The translations under genes were made by a program, and so were the position numbers. Source: a virus. Taken from it: DNA of 22,468 nt. This document shows positions 10,785 through 21,040 of this stretch, one piece after another. Under the pieces are notes generated by a model that saw only the letters and a program-made list of their open reading frames with translations, was not told the origin of the DNA and did not search any database. The stretch covers positions 1-22,468 of the IMG/VR virus record IMGVR_UViG_3300022072_000146; one strand, 5' to 3'. How positions within the stretch are numbered: position 1 is the stretch's first letter; every line of letters starts with the position of its first letter.

Positions 10785-10813
10785 TTGACTTCCTCGTCGC
10801 CACGGTGTATAAT
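10785..10813 (+). promoter_or_regulatory. sigma70-type promoter for the adhesin gene
   Basis: TTGACT (10785-10790), 17-base spacer, perfect TATAAT (10808-10813); ATG at 10857. Confidence 0.75.
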
Positions 10814-10856
10814 TTTAGTACAGAAACAAAGAACACAGCAGAAAAAGAGAATCACT

Positions 10857-12626
10857 ATGAAAAATCTAGCATCATCAGTATCAGCACTCGCAATCGCAGT
10901 AGTAACATCTTCCGTAGCCACATCCACGTTGGCACAAGATGCTGCTACTAACGCAGCAAATATCGCGACTAACGCAACAAATATCGCGACTAACGCAACA
11001 GATATCACAACTAACGCAACTACAGCAGCAGAGGCAAGTGCCACTAACGTAGTCGCCATCGTATTTGTGAATAATCGTTTGACAACGCTGAACAGTAAGA
11101 CTGAAACAGATATTGCGACTAACGTAACAGATATTGCGACTAACGCAGACGCTATCGCATCAAATCGCACTGACGGCATGGCTGCTGTCGGTATAGTATC
11201 GACCGCCACTCAAACCAACGCAACAAATATCGCGACTAACGCAGACGCTATCGAAGCCAACACAGGCGATATCACACAGTTGCAAACCCTCGGCCAGTTT
11301 AATTTCGTCACCGCGATTACTGCCGATAATAACACTCAAACCAACGCAACAAATATCGCGACTAACGTAACAGATATTGCGACTAACGTAACAGATATTG
11401 CGACTAACGCAGACGCTATCGCAATACTACAGACACAAGGCGTAACAGGAGACACTGGCGCTCAGGGCATTCAAGGCATTCAGGGAGAAACAGGCGCACA
11501 GGGAATTCAAGGCATTCAGGGAGAAACAGGCGCAACAGGCGCAGCAGGCGCTGATGGCGATACTGGCATTCAAGGTGAAACAGGTACAGATGGCGTAGAT
11601 GGAACCAATGGCACTAATGGCGTAGATGGCGTAGATGGAACCAATGGCACTAATGGCGTAGATGGCGTAGATGGAACCAATGGCACTAACGGAACTAATG
11701 GCGAAGATGGCGCACAAGGCATTCAAGGCGCAGATGGCACAGATGGCACTAACGGAACTAATGGCGAAGATGGCGCACAAGGCATTCAAGGCGCAGCAGG
11801 CGCAGATGGTGAAACAGGAGACACTGGCGCTCAGGGCATCCAGGGCGAAACAGGTACAGATGGCGTAGATGGCACAGATGGCGATAAAGGCGAAGACGGC
11901 GATAAAGGCGAAGACGGCGACGACTTTAACGGTGACGCTCGTCTGACAGTTGTAGAAACAGCCATCGATACTACAGCAACTACAGCAGCAGGGGCAAGTG
12001 CCGCTAACGCAACAGCTATCACGACTACAGCAACTACAGCAGCAGGGGCAAGTGCCGCCAACGCAGCAGATATCACAACTAACGTAAAGGCTATCGTAGA
12101 TACAGCAGAGCAGACATTGAAGCAAGCAAATAAGGCTCTGTCAGAGGCTATCGTATCACAAAATAATGAACGTATCCTGGCAGTAGCTGAACTCGCAGTA
12201 CAAGCAGAAAAGAACTTGGCAGATGCCAAAGAACTAGATGAGGCAACTAACGCACGAGTAGACACTAACGTTACTGCGATTGCTACTAACGTTACTGCGA
12301 TTGACACCAACAGAACAACCATTCGTAGCAATACATCAGCTATCTCTACCAACCGAGCAGCTATCCAAACCAACGCGGCTAACATCGATAACAACTCCAA
12401 GCGTATCGCCGCTGAATCAGCCAAAACTGCGGCATCGATTAATGCGCTATCATCAGCACCAGTGAACGGCATTGGTGTAGGCTTGGGCATCACAAATGAT
12501 GGCGGTCAGGCTATCTCAGTTGGATTCAAAACAATGCTTGATGCTAACACAATGTTTACTAGCACCTTAGCAGCAGACTCGACTGGTTCAGTGACAGTAG
12601 GCTTCGGCATCGGGTGGTCATTCTAA
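10857..12626 (+). CDS. Exported trimeric autotransporter-like adhesin: signal peptide, coiled coils, collagen-like stalk, YadA-type anchor
   Basis: 589 residues from ATG 10857 (AAAAAGAGAA SD). An upstream in-frame start at 10785 lies in the promoter and is rejected. Residues 1-26 are a Sec signal peptide ending STLA-QDA. Residues 27-194 contain heptads of the form I-A-T-N-A-T-N with Ile at a and Asn at d, the 'N@d' layer known from trimeric adhesin stalks. Residues ~195-358 are Gly-X-Y collagen-like repeats (GIQGETGAQ, GVDGTNGTNG, GDKGEDG). More coiled coil with AIATNVTAIDTN follows. The last ~65 residues (SAPVNGIGVGLGITNDGG ... VGFGIGWSF) match the YadA anchor: four beta strands ending in aromatic Phe. 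The protein is expected in the outer membrane of the infected cell, not in the virion. Function is inferred: surface display, exclusion or aggregation. Confidence 0.85.
   Translation: MKNLASSVSALAIAVVTSSVATSTLAQDAATNAANIATNATNIATNATDITTNATTAAEASATNVVAIVFVNNRLTTLNSKTETDIATNVTDIATNADAIASNRTDGMAAVGIVSTATQTNATNIATNADAIEANTGDITQLQTLGQFNFVTAITADNNTQTNATNIATNVTDIATNVTDIATNADAIAILQTQGVTGDTGAQGIQGIQGETGAQGIQGIQGETGATGAAGADGDTGIQGETGTDGVDGTNGTNGVDGVDGTNGTNGVDGVDGTNGTNGTNGEDGAQGIQGADGTDGTNGTNGEDGAQGIQGAAGADGETGDTGAQGIQGETGTDGVDGTDGDKGEDGDKGEDGDDFNGDARLTVVETAIDTTATTAAGASAANATAITTTATTAAGASAANAADITTNVKAIVDTAEQTLKQANKALSEAIVSQNNERILAVAELAVQAEKNLADAKELDEATNARVDTNVTAIATNVTAIDTNRTTIRSNTSAISTNRAAIQTNAANIDNNSKRIAAESAKTAASINALSSAPVNGIGVGLGITNDGGQAISVGFKTMLDANTMFTSTLAADSTGSVTVGFGIGWSF
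11440..11930 (+). repeat. collagen-like Gly-X-Y coding repeats
   Basis: Tandem 9- to 36-base units, for example the GATGGAACCAATGGCACTAA blocks around 11598-11700 and the repeated AATGGCGAAGATGGCGCACA blocks near 11698 and 11760. They encode Gly-X-Y triplets. Copy number is likely to vary by slippage or recombination. Confidence 0.8.
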
Positions 12627-16761: not shown

Positions 16762-16806
16762 ATGTTAAAAAGCAACCACTCAAACAAAAAAGTTACAAAT
16801 GTCTAA
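16762..16806 (+). CDS. 14-codon leader ORF overlapping IF-3
   Basis: ATG 16762 follows the only good SD in the gap (AAGGGA, 16752-16757). It reads MLKSNHSNKKVTNV and stops at TAA 16804-16806. The IF-3 ATG (16799) lies inside its last codons in another frame (AATGTCTAA). IF-3 itself has no SD (AAAAAAGTTACAA before ATG), so termination-reinitiation on this leader is the likely way it is translated. Translation of such a short ORF is inferred, not proven. Confidence 0.55.
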   Translation: MLKSNHSNKKVTNV

Positions 16807-17332
16807 TTTCAAAAAACGCGAAGAACGTCAGGCGATTAACGAGCATATTAGATACAATGAATTACGTGTTCTGGATGAATCAGGACAACTAGGCGTAATG
16901 TCGAAAGCAAAGGCATTGCGGATTGCTGAGGAGCAAGGATTGGATTTGGTAGTAATCACCGAAACAGTTGATCCTCCAGTTGCGAAAATTCTAGATGCCA
17001 CTAAGCACTTCTATGAGCAGAAAAAACGTGAAAAAGAAGTAGCAAAAAAGCAGCGTGAAGGACGAGTTGAAGTCAAAGAAATTCAATTCCGTCCAGGTAT
17101 CGGCATTCATGATTTCGAAACTAAACTCAAGCACATTGATAACTTTTTGAGCAAGGGCGCTAAAGTTCGCTGTATGGTAAGATACAAAGGCAGAGAGAAC
17201 GCTAACAAACAAATTGGATTTGAGGTACTACAGAGAATAGTCGAAACACTTGAAAATTCAGAATGGGAAACCCCGCCAAATCTGAATGGAAATAGATTAA
17301 TAGGGATATTGAAAAGAGATAAAAATGAGTAA
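16799..17332 (+). CDS. infC: Translation initiation factor IF-3 homologue
   Basis: 177 residues, the length of bacterial IF-3 (about 180). The N-domain starts INEHIRYNELRVLDESGQLG, then ALRIAEEQGLDLVVITETVD, PPVAKILDATKHFYEQKK (counterpart of the PPVCRIMDYGKFLYE signature). A Lys-rich linker (76-89) follows, then the C-domain: VEVKEIQFRPG (90-100), DFETKLKHIDNFLSKGAKVR, MVRYKGRENANKQIGFEVLQ, and NRLIGILKR. Both lobes and the linker are intact, so 30S binding and start-codon proofreading are plausible. The 3' end overlaps or adjoins bS21. IF-3 is essential in bacteria and rare in phages. It could favour phage mRNAs or displace host IF-3. Confidence 0.93.
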   Translation: MSNFKKREERQAINEHIRYNELRVLDESGQLGVMSKAKALRIAEEQGLDLVVITETVDPPVAKILDATKHFYEQKKREKEVAKKQREGRVEVKEIQFRPGIGIHDFETKLKHIDNFLSKGAKVRCMVRYKGRENANKQIGFEVLQRIVETLENSEWETPPNLNGNRLIGILKRDKNE

Positions 17333-18942: not shown

Positions 18943-18983
18943 ACCAATATCTAACACCATCCTAACACAGAGAAATGTATAAT

Positions 18984-19478
18984 ATGTCAGCGACTATATT
19001 ACCAAGCGAACAAGGTTTTGTTTATAAATGGATATACAAACCCACGGGGGAGTATTATATAGGAATCCATAAGGGCACCATGGACGATGGATACATTGGT
19101 TCCGGTGTATTATTTAGAAGAAAGTTTACCAATACTTCCCGTGATCATTGGGAGAGAGAAGTACTATTCGAAGGCGATTACTGGACCGAATGTCTGAAAA
19201 AAGAAAAAGAACTAGTAAACTGGAAAACCTTAAAAGAACCGTTGTGTCTCAATCTGGCAGTAGGCGGTAAAAGAGGCAGATCTGGACCTTCTTTGCACGC
19301 AGGAAAGCGTCAATCGTACAGATGTAAACCACAGGAGATCATACTAGATGGCACGACATATCCCACGCGAATGATTGCCTGTAAAAAATTGAGTATTACA
19401 TTTGAAGAATTGGACGCTAGACTTATACACGCAGGATGGCAGAAATCATGCAAGTATAACAGATACAATAGATATTGA
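18984..19478 (+). CDS. GIY-YIG homing endonuclease
   Basis: 164 residues from ATG 18984 (AGAGAAA 8 bases upstream); an ATG at 18975 is too close to that SD. GFVYKW (11-16), YYIGIHKGTMDDGYIGSG (24-41) and a catalytic-type Glu in KKEKELV define the same subfamily as the nrdA endonuclease. The C-terminal domain (SYRCKPQEIILDGTTYPTRM, then ACKKLSITFEELDARLIHAG) is a NUMOD1-like DNA-binding unit. Sits between small genes, not inside a recognisable target gene. Confidence 0.85.
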   Translation: MSATILPSEQGFVYKWIYKPTGEYYIGIHKGTMDDGYIGSGVLFRRKFTNTSRDHWEREVLFEGDYWTECLKKEKELVNWKTLKEPLCLNLAVGGKRGRSGPSLHAGKRQSYRCKPQEIILDGTTYPTRMIACKKLSITFEELDARLIHAGWQKSCKYNRYNRY

Positions 19479-19520: not shown

Positions 19521-19718
19521 ATGAGCACCGGTTATTTTACAAAATCCACTAAATCATATAGGTGTAAACCACAGGAAATCAGCCTAAACGGCATGACATA
19601 TCCTACGAGGATGCAGGCAATCAAGGCATTGGGAATAACGTTCGACGAGCTGGACAGCCGCCTAATCAGGGCAGGATGGTGGAAATCCTGTAGATATAAC
19701 TGGGCAAACAGAACATAG
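19521..19718 (+). CDS. Free-standing homing-endonuclease DNA-binding domain
   Basis: 65 residues with a strong SD (AAAGGAAAG). After MSTGYFTKSTK the rest (SYRCKPQEISLNGMTYPTRM, QAIKALGITFDELDSRLIRA, GWWKSCRYN) is about 70% identical to the C-terminal domain of the endonuclease just upstream, including at DNA level. No nuclease domain. It arose by duplication of the DNA-binding part. It could compete for or repress at the endonuclease target, or be a relic. Confidence 0.78.
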   Translation: MSTGYFTKSTKSYRCKPQEISLNGMTYPTRMQAIKALGITFDELDSRLIRAGWWKSCRYNWANRT

Positions 19719-19769
19719 AGTCTCCGCGAGATATGTCAAAACGTGAGTTATGGTATGCGCAGAATGCAG

Positions 19770-19798
19770 TTGTTTTTCGCTCTAAAATGGTGTAAATA
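19770..19798 (+). promoter_or_regulatory. weak sigma70-type promoter for the DUF1127 operon
   Basis: TTGTTT (19770-19775), 17-base spacer, TAAATA (19793-19798), 46 bases before ATG 19844. Weaker matches than the other promoters. Confidence 0.45.
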
Positions 19799-19800
19799 TA

Positions 19801-19823
19801 TATGTGAGCATGATGCTCATATA
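19801..19823. promoter_or_regulatory. 23-bp near-perfect palindrome at the predicted transcription start
   Basis: Centred on 19812, core GAGCATGATGCTC, 11-base arms with one G/T exception. Its position directly after the -10 suits a repressor operator. Confidence 0.5.
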
Positions 19824-19843
19824 CACACATATAGAGAAAACCA

Positions 19844-20062
19844 ATGAACAAACTCCTAACAATACTACGAAAAATGTTTCCGAAACAAAAAAAAGTTTCA
19901 AAAGAATATATGACATGGGCTCGTACTGAGTATGGTCGTGATTGGCAATTTGCCTATCAATCAATGATGGATAATCCTGGTTCAATTCCAAGAATCGATC
20001 ATGAAGTCAAGTTTTCATCCACGTGTGTTGATACAAATATAAACCTAAAGGGATGGATTTAA
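19844..20062 (+). CDS. Small basic protein, unknown
   Basis: 72 residues: MNKLLTILRKMFPKQKKVSK, EYMTWARTEYGRDWQFAYQS, MMDNPGSIPRIDHEVKF. The N-terminal amphipathic basic helix may bind membrane or RNA, and TWARTEYGRDW looks like a second helix. First gene of a four-gene overlapping operon; its stop overlaps the next start (TAATG). SD is weak (GAGAAAA). Confidence 0.72.
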   Translation: MNKLLTILRKMFPKQKKVSKEYMTWARTEYGRDWQFAYQSMMDNPGSIPRIDHEVKFSSTCVDTNINLKGWI

Positions 20063-20253
20063 TGTCAACAGCAACTATTAGTACATACTACTGCAAATTT
20101 TGCGATGCAGTTAAAACAATCGCACTAACAGCACTCATGGGAATGATCGCATTTGGCGAATCAACTGGCAGAGCAAGAGCGGCATCAGCATTAGCCCAGC
20201 AGGGCCATCACGATCTAGCTAGAAAAGTTATGTTAGATGGAGATGACAAATGA
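20062..20253 (+). CDS. Small protein with alphaproteobacterial DUF1127-like C-terminus
   Basis: 63 residues from ATG 20062 (AAGGGATG SD, stop/start overlap); an ATG at 20053 has no spacing from the SD. MSTATISTYYCKFCDAVKTI, ALTALMGMIAFGESTGRARA, ASALAQQGHHDLARKVML. The N-terminal MST-T-TYYC-FC-AV motif is shared with the next gene. The 'GRARAASALAQQGHHDLARK' segment is like the 'ARAAAELAR-GY-E-A' helix of small alphaproteobacterial proteins. Possibly a protein- or RNA-binding regulator. Confidence 0.72.
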   Translation: MSTATISTYYCKFCDAVKTIALTALMGMIAFGESTGRARAASALAQQGHHDLARKVMLDGDDK

Positions 20254-20474
20254 GCACTCAAACAATTGCAACTTACTATTGTGCATTCTGTGCCGCAGTT
20301 GCCAACTTCTTTAAAAATTCAATAAAAGAAACATGCTTTGATCCAAAGTTTGATCGAAAAACACACAAAATACTTAGCCAAATGAGTAACCGTGAACTAG
20401 CTGACATCGGCATTACTCGCGGTGATATTATGCACATCTCAATGGGCGGCGACATTTATAGAGGTGATCGCTAA
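20250..20474 (+). CDS. DUF1127-family small protein
   Basis: 74 residues. MSTQTIATYYCAFCAAVANF has the same CxxC-bearing start as its neighbour. The C-terminal half, FDRKTHKILSQMSNRELADI then GITRGDIMHISMGG, is a DUF1127 (YjiS-like) motif: L-S-x-R-E-L-x-D-I-G-I-T-R-G-D-I. Bacterial DUF1127 proteins are small Arg-rich factors linked to RNA metabolism and nutrient or stress responses in alphaproteobacteria. Overlaps its neighbours by ATGA and TAATG. A host-derived gene captured by the phage is the likely origin. Confidence 0.85.
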   Translation: MSTQTIATYYCAFCAAVANFFKNSIKETCFDPKFDRKTHKILSQMSNRELADIGITRGDIMHISMGGDIYRGDR

Positions 20475-20677
20475 TGTGGAATAGAATGATTAAACGATTA
20501 GAGATTATTGGTTACTGTAGAGCCATTGGCGCCCTTAGTCAGCAACATGGTGTCACTCAACGGCATATTGATTGCTTAAAAGATTCTGCTGACCAGGCTC
20601 GTGTTGACCTAGCAAAAATGAAAAACGAAACTAAATTACGTATAACAAATAACATGGCAACCAAATTAATCGGTTGA
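20474..20677 (+). CDS. Small helical protein, last gene of the DUF1127 operon
   Basis: 67 residues, SD GAGGTGAT. MWNRMIKRLEIIGYCRAIGA, LSQQHGVTQRHIDCLKDSAD, QARVDLAKMKNETKLRI. All helix, with a first helix 'RLEIIGYCRAIGALSQQHG' similar in layout to the GRARAASALAQQG helix two genes upstream, so it may be a divergent relative. Its TGA stop overlaps the -35 of the next promoter. Confidence 0.72.
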   Translation: MWNRMIKRLEIIGYCRAIGALSQQHGVTQRHIDCLKDSADQARVDLAKMKNETKLRITNNMATKLIG

Positions 20678-20702
20678 CAAATATAAATATCTATGCTATA
20701 AT
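20674..20702 (+). promoter_or_regulatory. consensus sigma70 promoter for the 20750 gene
   Basis: TTGACA (20674-20679), 17-base spacer, TATAAT (20697-20702): perfect match in both boxes, the strongest in the window. The spacer contains TATAAATA. The leader carries a tandem TAGTTAAACA repeat (20707-20716, 20718-20727). Confidence 0.8.
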
Positions 20703-20749: not shown

Positions 20750-21040
20750 ATGAACGATATGACAAAACAATTTGAGCAATTTACTAACATGCTCAAGGCA
20801 GTAACACCACAGATTACGCCAAACAAAAATGGCTATGAAATCCGTACCAAAGTACTAGAGTATGCCCAAAATCAAACTTGGCAGGACTATCATGCTAAGT
20901 TTGCTGGATACGAAACAACAGTTACCAAGGAAGGTGACGAAGTAGTTACTAAGGTAGAACTGCCCGAAGTACCAGGCGCTGATGTTGTATTAGAAACAGC
21001 ACAGAAGTTTTATGATTTTGTAAGCGGCAAGAAATCCTAA
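20750..21040 (+). CDS. Small abundant-type phage protein, unknown function
   Basis: 96 residues, SD TGGAGAA. MNDMTKQFEQFTNMLKAVTP, QITPNKNGYEIRTKVLEYAQ, NQTWQDYHAKFAGYETTVTK, then EVVTKVELPEVPGADVVLET, AQKFYDFVSG. The 'GYEIRTKVLEYAQNQTWQDYHAK' helix and 'VPGADVVLETAQKFYDFV' end are familiar from hypothetical proteins of marine T4-like phages. Acidic, soluble, no enzymatic motif. Its dedicated consensus promoter and strong terminator mark it as a highly expressed single-gene unit. Confidence 0.82.
   Translation: MNDMTKQFEQFTNMLKAVTPQITPNKNGYEIRTKVLEYAQNQTWQDYHAKFAGYETTVTKEGDEVVTKVELPEVPGADVVLETAQKFYDFVSGKKS

Follow-up and report, generated by a model that had tools for sequence, protein, structure and literature searches.

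A DUF1127 gene in a probable modular cassette of small overlapping phage genes

The marine-type phage record analysed here, a viral stretch of 22,468 bases that we call the window, carries a row of four tiny overlapping genes (A, B, C and D), and this segment is very probably one A-B-C-D copy of a modular phage small-protein cassette. Gene C encodes a member of the DUF1127 family. Proteobacteria have few small proteins more common than those of the DUF1127 family, whose function is debated between two views, PhoR partner and RNA binder. Our best explanation overall is a tentative one and falls somewhat short of an even chance: the cassette copy would be membrane-tethered and C would tune a host regulator. 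Other genes of the window include nrdB, a glutaredoxin, a cell wall hydrolase and an IF3 homologue.

The four open reading frames share one orientation on the + strand (19844-20677, Table 1). A and B overlap at a TAATG, B and C by 4 bases and C and D by 1 base. Since A to D are co-oriented with stop-to-start overlaps, they are probably translated together. The initial annotation had described an operon of three. Its frames (20053-20253, 20250-20474 and 20474-20677, + strand, mutual overlaps of 1-4 bases) are present as described and the overlapping gene set stands, but the unit begins earlier, at gene A (19844-20062). Judged from the sequence, the true start of B is probably 20062 and not 20053, because a start codon at 20062 shares a TAATG with the stop of A, an arrangement that is recurrent in relatives; the ATG at 20053 is inside the last codons of A, and an MGIM.. 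is found 5' of the true start in relatives too. At the other end, the unit is delimited by a promoter that overlaps D and has the D stop codon within its -35 box. A hairpin is predicted at the palindrome TGAGCATGATGCTCA in the fold of 19719-19850, and the inverted repeat is listed on the - strand as terminator-like; it is possibly a reduced leader hairpin or an operator.

Table 1. Features of the cassette segment and its borders in the window
Feature	Position	Strand	Size	Description	Basis
Palindrome	19805..19819	+	15 nt	TGAGCATGATGCTCA then ATATACACACATATAGAG; directly before gene A	sequence
Gene A	19844..20062	+	72 aa	EYxxDWxfAYqxM family, ends NINLKGWI	own HMM
Gene B	20062..20253 (start probable)	+	63 aa	CxxC, hydrophobic/amphipathic helix, GRARAASALAQQG helix and turn	
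Gene C	20250..20474	+	74 aa	TYYCxFC N-terminal helix and DUF1127 core	
Gene D	20474..20677	+	67 aa	MWxRxIKRxEIIGxxRA family	pairwise identity, hhalign
Sigma-70 promoter	20674..20702	+		12/12, extended -10 (TTGACA, 17 nt, TATAAT)	
Gene G	20750..21040	+	96 aa	conserved neighbour 3' of cassette, function unassigned	

That the frame 20250-20474 encodes a DUF1127 protein, as proposed initially, is borne out by a PF06568 match with E 2.6e-9 and 37.1 bits against a cut-off of 23.3 (7.3e-11 in the family search of the record), which covers profile positions 14-36 of 37. The absence of a DUF1127 hit, named initially as the refuting outcome, is thereby not observed. As to the arginine-rich first part of the domain, the match sets in only at profile position 14, and C as a whole contains five arginines. 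C is also recovered at 6.4e-21 by an HMM built without the window sequence. Its DIG[LI] core reads NRELADIGITRGDI, and this core is aligned in A2 and A6. The model of C contains helices at 3-27, 36-43, 47-53 and 57-64 (mean pLDDT 67.0). Bacterial DUF1127 proteins (A. tumefaciens SDP1-3, R. sphaeroides CcaF1, E. coli and Salmonella YjiS) are, like C, small proteins with an N-terminal helix and an LSxxxxRELADIGITRGDI-type core, whereas the phage protein differs by the TYYCxFC at its N-terminus. Among A-D only C matches PF06568. The first frame had likewise been called DUF1127-like, but no Pfam family matches it at E<=10, and its proposed relation to DUF1127 finds no support in the profile-profile comparison of families B and C (probability 4.5%), a value that likewise lends no support to homology of B and C over their full length. 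The third gene does follow, but it belongs to a separate family, D, and is no DUF1127: it has no Pfam match over cut-off and none to PF06568 at E<=10, and the profiles of C and D compare with a probability of 1.8%.

Family B, named here, has GRARAASALAQQGHHDLAR as its signature. The window protein scores 5.1e-28 with an HMM built without the window sequence, and its model consists of one long and one short helix (6-46 and 50-58, mean pLDDT 77.6). No Pfam family matches family B above cut-off and no PHROG below E 0.01, the best PHROG reaching E 0.058; this lack of matches makes the cassette invisible to current phage annotation. Weak hits to PHROG 12535 and to DUF5318 (5 of 55 members, best E 0.0061) were taken as chance. 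Nevertheless, the family recurs in hundreds of uncultured viral contigs. Searching the B alignment against viral contigs gave at least 600 stretches, of which at least 224 were confirmed and 80 kept, and the kept stretches together with earlier loci and the window yield 63 distinct B proteins. Outside viral contigs, a scan of genome contigs returned four stretches and one weak MAG match with a pattern that fits only 9 of the 63 distinct B, and one plasmid query returned none. An exclusive occurrence of B in phages is not established, as the contig pattern would miss most distinct B.

What B and C share is the N-terminus. The initial annotation had pointed to two adjacent genes with a common start, and TYYCxFCxAV is indeed found in both, but only C continues into a DUF1127 core. 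Thirteen of 17 residues are identical in this segment (E 7e-8, a single comparison), while its coding DNA agrees in 32 of 51 bases and in 5 of 17 codons. So few identical bases and codons speak for an old likeness at the protein level and not for a recent DNA copy. Thus, of the duplicated set that had been suggested, the duplication or exchange of part of a gene is retained and a fresh duplication is not. Among the matches listed, 57 of the 63 distinct B have the CxxC N-terminus, as do 12 of the 22 distinct DUF1127 genes that lie downstream of B; it is absent from all 31 DUF1127 genes upstream of B and all ten in loci lacking B. Since 6 of the 63 B proteins lack the CxxC, it is not essential. 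A CxxC could form a zinc hook between B and C, but we regard this as a speculative idea at most, because the motif lies inside a continuous predicted helix and is missing from these six.

Exchange of modules extends beyond the N-terminus. Genes of types A, C and E alike can terminate in an NLKGWV tail, which overlaps the B start. Reading it as a ribosome-binding artefact was dismissed, as AAAGGA explains the KG while N, L, W and V persist although their codons change; the tail may act as a peptide or linker. The second tail, YEAGDHYMRGKxVATWKGKAHA, ends DUF1127 and D-type genes, and a fused form in L103, L138 and L169 combines a D-like start, a B-like hairpin and a YEAGDHYMRGK-type tail. B and D have the turn of the second helix in common (hhalign probability 72.7%, E 3.2e-5, one comparison). 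Because of such shared modules iterated HMMs merged B, C and D, and the families were then split manually by motif. Two DUF1127 genes with unlike N-termini and tails flank B in L032, L041, L054 and others.

Gene A scores 6.5e-23 with its own HMM, which has the window sequence among its seeds, is 38% identical over 73 aa to gene A of L017 (E 7e-21, a single pair) and matches no Pfam family. Gene D is 54% identical over 50 aa to L017:3413-3640 (E 1e-19, a single pair), aligns to profile A7 with an hhalign probability of 90.4% (38% over 24 columns) and scores 9.5e-5 with an HMM built without the window sequence. Gene G has matches in 30 loci with at most 68% identity and no PHROG at E<=0.01. Of 27 distinct cassette loci with G, 10 have a strong sigma-70 promoter (TTGACA) 64-76 nt 5' of this gene. 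Weak family matches of D (Csx12, TFA2_Winged_2) and G (G1RFP) were regarded as chance.

We speak of a B-cassette where B is accompanied, on its own strand, by one or more genes of type A, C, D, E or F, and the window has one (A-B-C-D). Among the matches listed, all 63 distinct B have such a partner, with A2 counted alongside A. This figure is partly circular, since the neighbourhoods of B served to define families A, D, E and F, DUF1127 and DUF3563 being independent Pfam families. Among these listed proteins, 55 have an A or A2 partner, 47 a C, 27 a D and 11 an E. Most B-C pairs overlap or abut and the others are 109-157 bases apart, again among the matches listed; the order A-B-C-D is also found in L017 and L021. 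F-type partners are hydrophobic and 33-42 aa long. E-type partners in L015 (1.7e-7) and L071 (7.7e-7) match DUF3563 (PF12086) over cut-off, those in L040 and L046 below it; in contrast to these cassettes, the window has no E gene. The T4-type late promoter ATAAATA occurs within 140 nt 5' of the cassette in 8 of 64 cases (expected 2.0-2.9). Searches of titles and abstract openings in the open-licence literature returned no publication on the cassette or its leader, and none that treats DUF3563 together with DUF1127.

Among isolates, B was found in the four Melnitz methylophages only. In Melnitz EXVC044M, genes 44-46 (MZ577097; also MZ577095, MZ577096 and MZ577098) encode an A2-type protein, B and DUF1127 in the same order and with overlaps. 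The Melnitz C is 43.5% identical over 93% of the query, and the Melnitz B 37% over 77%. Their cassette differs from that of the window in being near RNR genes, in its A of the A2 type and in another small ORF after C. The genes are annotated only as hypothetical and DUF1127, and DUF1127 does not appear in the text of the paper (PMC9004378). Only 4 of 44 matching phage records cover 80% of C, the same number as there are Melnitz records, and none of 236 plasmid records with a tblastn match does so.

These isolates also bear on the host. DUF1127 had been taken to indicate an alphaproteobacterial host, but the phages with the same B-C pair infect Methylophilales sp. H5P1, placed in the Gammaproteobacteria in the abstract of PMC9004378. 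With the same cassette in Methylophilales phages, the host class cannot be read from DUF1127. Roseobacters, rhizobia and Methylophilales all have isolate phages that carry DUF1127, and the nrdB of the window is nearest to jumbo phages of Xanthomonas and Erwinia (~61%).

Could C simply be a lone, recently captured host DUF1127 gene whose neighbours are unrelated and have no common function? Single DUF1127 genes do occur elsewhere in phages, among them roseophages and rhizobiophages, often by an Hsp20-like gene. With C as query, a pattern search found at least 13 viral contigs, most with a lone DUF1127 gene, and several of the lone viral genes among the matches listed adjoin an Hsp20-like gene. 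However, we consider capture very improbable for the window, because the B-C pair recurs, in Melnitz and in 47 of the 63 distinct B loci among the matches listed, and because the N-terminal module common to B and C is found on listed DUF1127 genes only downstream of B.

Many relatives carry a run of hairpins 5' of the first cassette gene. From 18 sequences we built a covariance model, R1, of the last two leader hairpins. It gives 54 matches at E<=1 in the window and 95 loci, 53 of them on the cassette strand, and is found in 42 of 64 distinct B loci (e.g. L029:2436-2563), mostly before A and otherwise before C or B. In the window itself R1 has no match (best 7.1 bits, E 2.4, filters off). All four pairs of the first modelled stem have changed on both sides and 99.0% of cells pair; its covariation is 0.110 compared with a shuffled mean of 0.034, a value that none of 500 shuffles reached, and slid controls gave zero or close to it. 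There is little variation in the second modelled stem of this alignment, since divergent leaders are not aligned there. Stems of at least four pairs around a CC loop are present in 26 of 27 chosen leaders, with 9.1 expected in shuffles; the pattern was set after data inspection, and the 27 are a selection from 39 leaders plus L045 and L064. The last loop usually contains CCU, which could pair with a Shine-Dalgarno site. Rfam has no match at cut-off in the window and 19 related loci save two tRNAs in relatives, and its freshwater-2 model was set aside (16.7 bits against a cut-off of 49.9).

In a second test with another seed, 20 leader bases were scanned, which gave at least 120 loci and 89 distinct contexts. 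Of these 89 listed contexts, 80 have cassette genes (69 with B) and 6 are cut off within 100 bases. The leader-seeded and B-seeded sets overlap, at least 19 of 80 listed leader contigs being in both. The remaining three contexts (L124, L136 and L137) show the leader core, another small gene and then csgF and csgG homologues. Leader control of bacterial DUF1127 genes has been described, e.g. in S. meliloti (PMC12218461).

The leader bears on the main rival of the PhoR reading developed below, in which C would be a CcaF1-like binder of phage or host RNA, perhaps of its own leader in relatives, that steers RNase E-dependent turnover or sRNA maturation with B and D as helpers. CcaF1, a 71-aa DUF1127 protein of R. 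sphaeroides, binds mRNAs and acts with RNase E, and the alphaproteobacterial CIN1 locus combines DUF1127 genes with CcsR-like sRNAs (both from PMC10253847). Structured leaders before so many cassettes, usually with the CCU loop, fit such a role, and CIN1 with its DUF1127 genes and CcsR/cuckoo sRNAs resembles the leader-bearing relatives in uniting DUF1127 and RNA hairpins in one transcription unit. In the cassettes, however, the RNA stands before and not after the genes, occurs also without DUF1127 (A-E-B, A-E-B-F) and has no Rfam match; the window has neither a gathering match to CcsR-like sRNAs nor an R1 leader. Moreover, just five of the 74 residues of the window C are arginines, and PMC11707872 saw no indication that Salmonella YjiS binds RNA. 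We judge RNA binding by C to be on the unlikely side, while a serious contender.

The preferred reading places the cassette at the inner membrane. B would be a membrane-inserted or membrane-bound microprotein, the shared N-terminal helix would bring C to the same inner-membrane place, and the DUF1127 hairpin of C would contact a host regulator by protein-protein interaction, most likely the PhoR sensor kinase or its complex, with the result that the phage alters the phosphate handling of its host. Membrane association of the cassette proteins seems rather likely to us. The 19-residue Kyte-Doolittle maximum exceeds 1.6 in 65% of 55 family B members and in 0% of 53 C, and Salmonella YjiS associates with the inner membrane (PMC11707872). 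The N-terminal segments are amphipathic, 0.8% (window B) and 4.6% (window C) of shuffles being as high; no such excess appears in the best windows of L051 C and L029 D. Two values stand against this reading: the best 19-residue stretch of the window B is borderline (KD 1.62, octanol +0.11), and the N-terminus of the window C is better on the octanol scale (-3.3).

PhoR or phosphate as the target is a clearly more doubtful proposition. According to PMC12501420, PhoR is a binding partner of A. tumefaciens DUF1127 proteins and of E. coli YjiS, and Pst expression and phosphate uptake rise when these DUF1127 proteins are lost. Since loss raises uptake, a phage copy should reduce it, a change of no obvious benefit that argues against our explanation. 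Among the matches listed, 31 of the 81 B-seeded loci and 46 of the 120 leader-seeded ones have a PiT-like transporter gene. It accompanies 22 of 45 distinct loci with DUF1127 compared with 3 of 17 without (Fisher p 0.041, uncorrected for relatedness), and both genes are missing from 14 of the 62 loci tabulated. The match of the PiT-like protein to PF01384 (PHO4) stays below cut-off (E 0.0014), and no solved structure matches it; two ND/HDxxN-type repeats and PxSTx motifs, as we take them to be, are visible in its sequence. In L053 a gene before the cassette encodes a protein of the phosphate-binding type. Evidence for the phosphate link comes from relatives, as no recognised phosphate gene lies in the window. 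Cupredoxin genes are found in 16 of 81 B-seeded and 25 of 120 leader-seeded loci among the matches listed.

Hydrophobic proteins could also serve the envelope itself, with membrane microproteins guarding the infected cell or modifying its envelope (superinfection exclusion, lysis timing) and DUF1127 as a mere scaffold. The hydrophobic helix of B and the F-type partners agree with this, as do the csgF and csgG genes that some phages have behind the leader; PMC9004378 considers pores and pinholins in connection with the csgGF operon. Yet csgG is rare among the matches listed, with just one of 81 B-seeded loci and 7 of the 120 leader-seeded ones, and no defence or lysis family was matched, so that we find an envelope function improbable.

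Beyond the window, the cassettes may represent an undescribed marine-phage regulon, a possibility to which we give clearly less than an even chance. It would pair a new cis-acting structured RNA with a combinatorial cassette in which the CxxC helix, DUF1127, the GRARAAAEL hairpin, DUF3563 and the NLKGWV and YEAGDHYMRGK tails are shuffled as modules. Situated at the inner membrane and often beside a PiT-like transporter, it would be a counterpart of bacterial DUF1127/PhoR or DUF1127/sRNA control, and the window would be a leaderless branch. Phages that keep DUF1127 in a fixed partnership offer a new way to ask for its function: the partner B, conserved over hundreds of contigs, can be co-purified, and the leader RNA of the relatives is a testable new structured RNA.

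Several other genes of the window deserve mention. Upstream of the cassette lie two ORFs (18975-19478 and 19521-19718); the C-terminal part of the first (RCKPQEIxLxGxTYPTRM...AGWxKSC) recurs in the second, and they have a sub-threshold match to the I-TevI DNA-binding domain (0.022). The IF-3 homologue at 16799-17332 contains both Pfam domains (3.7e-25 and 1.3e-24; PHROG 4.1e-46). The ORF at 17635-18030 matches PHROG 27368 'ATP-dependent protease' (7.3e-26), and its product may be a ClpS-type adaptor, judging by its sequence. The nrdA gene is interrupted (1878-5178): barrel-domain positions 1-221 and 214-523 are found in two ORFs, with an unrelated 260-aa ORF (3368-4150) between them that looks GIY-YIG endonuclease-like by eye. 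The 613-aa protein encoded at 10785-12626 contains collagen-like GxY repeats (GAQGIQG, GTDGTNG) and is probably a fibre; long open frames on the reverse strand of this gene are due to composition.
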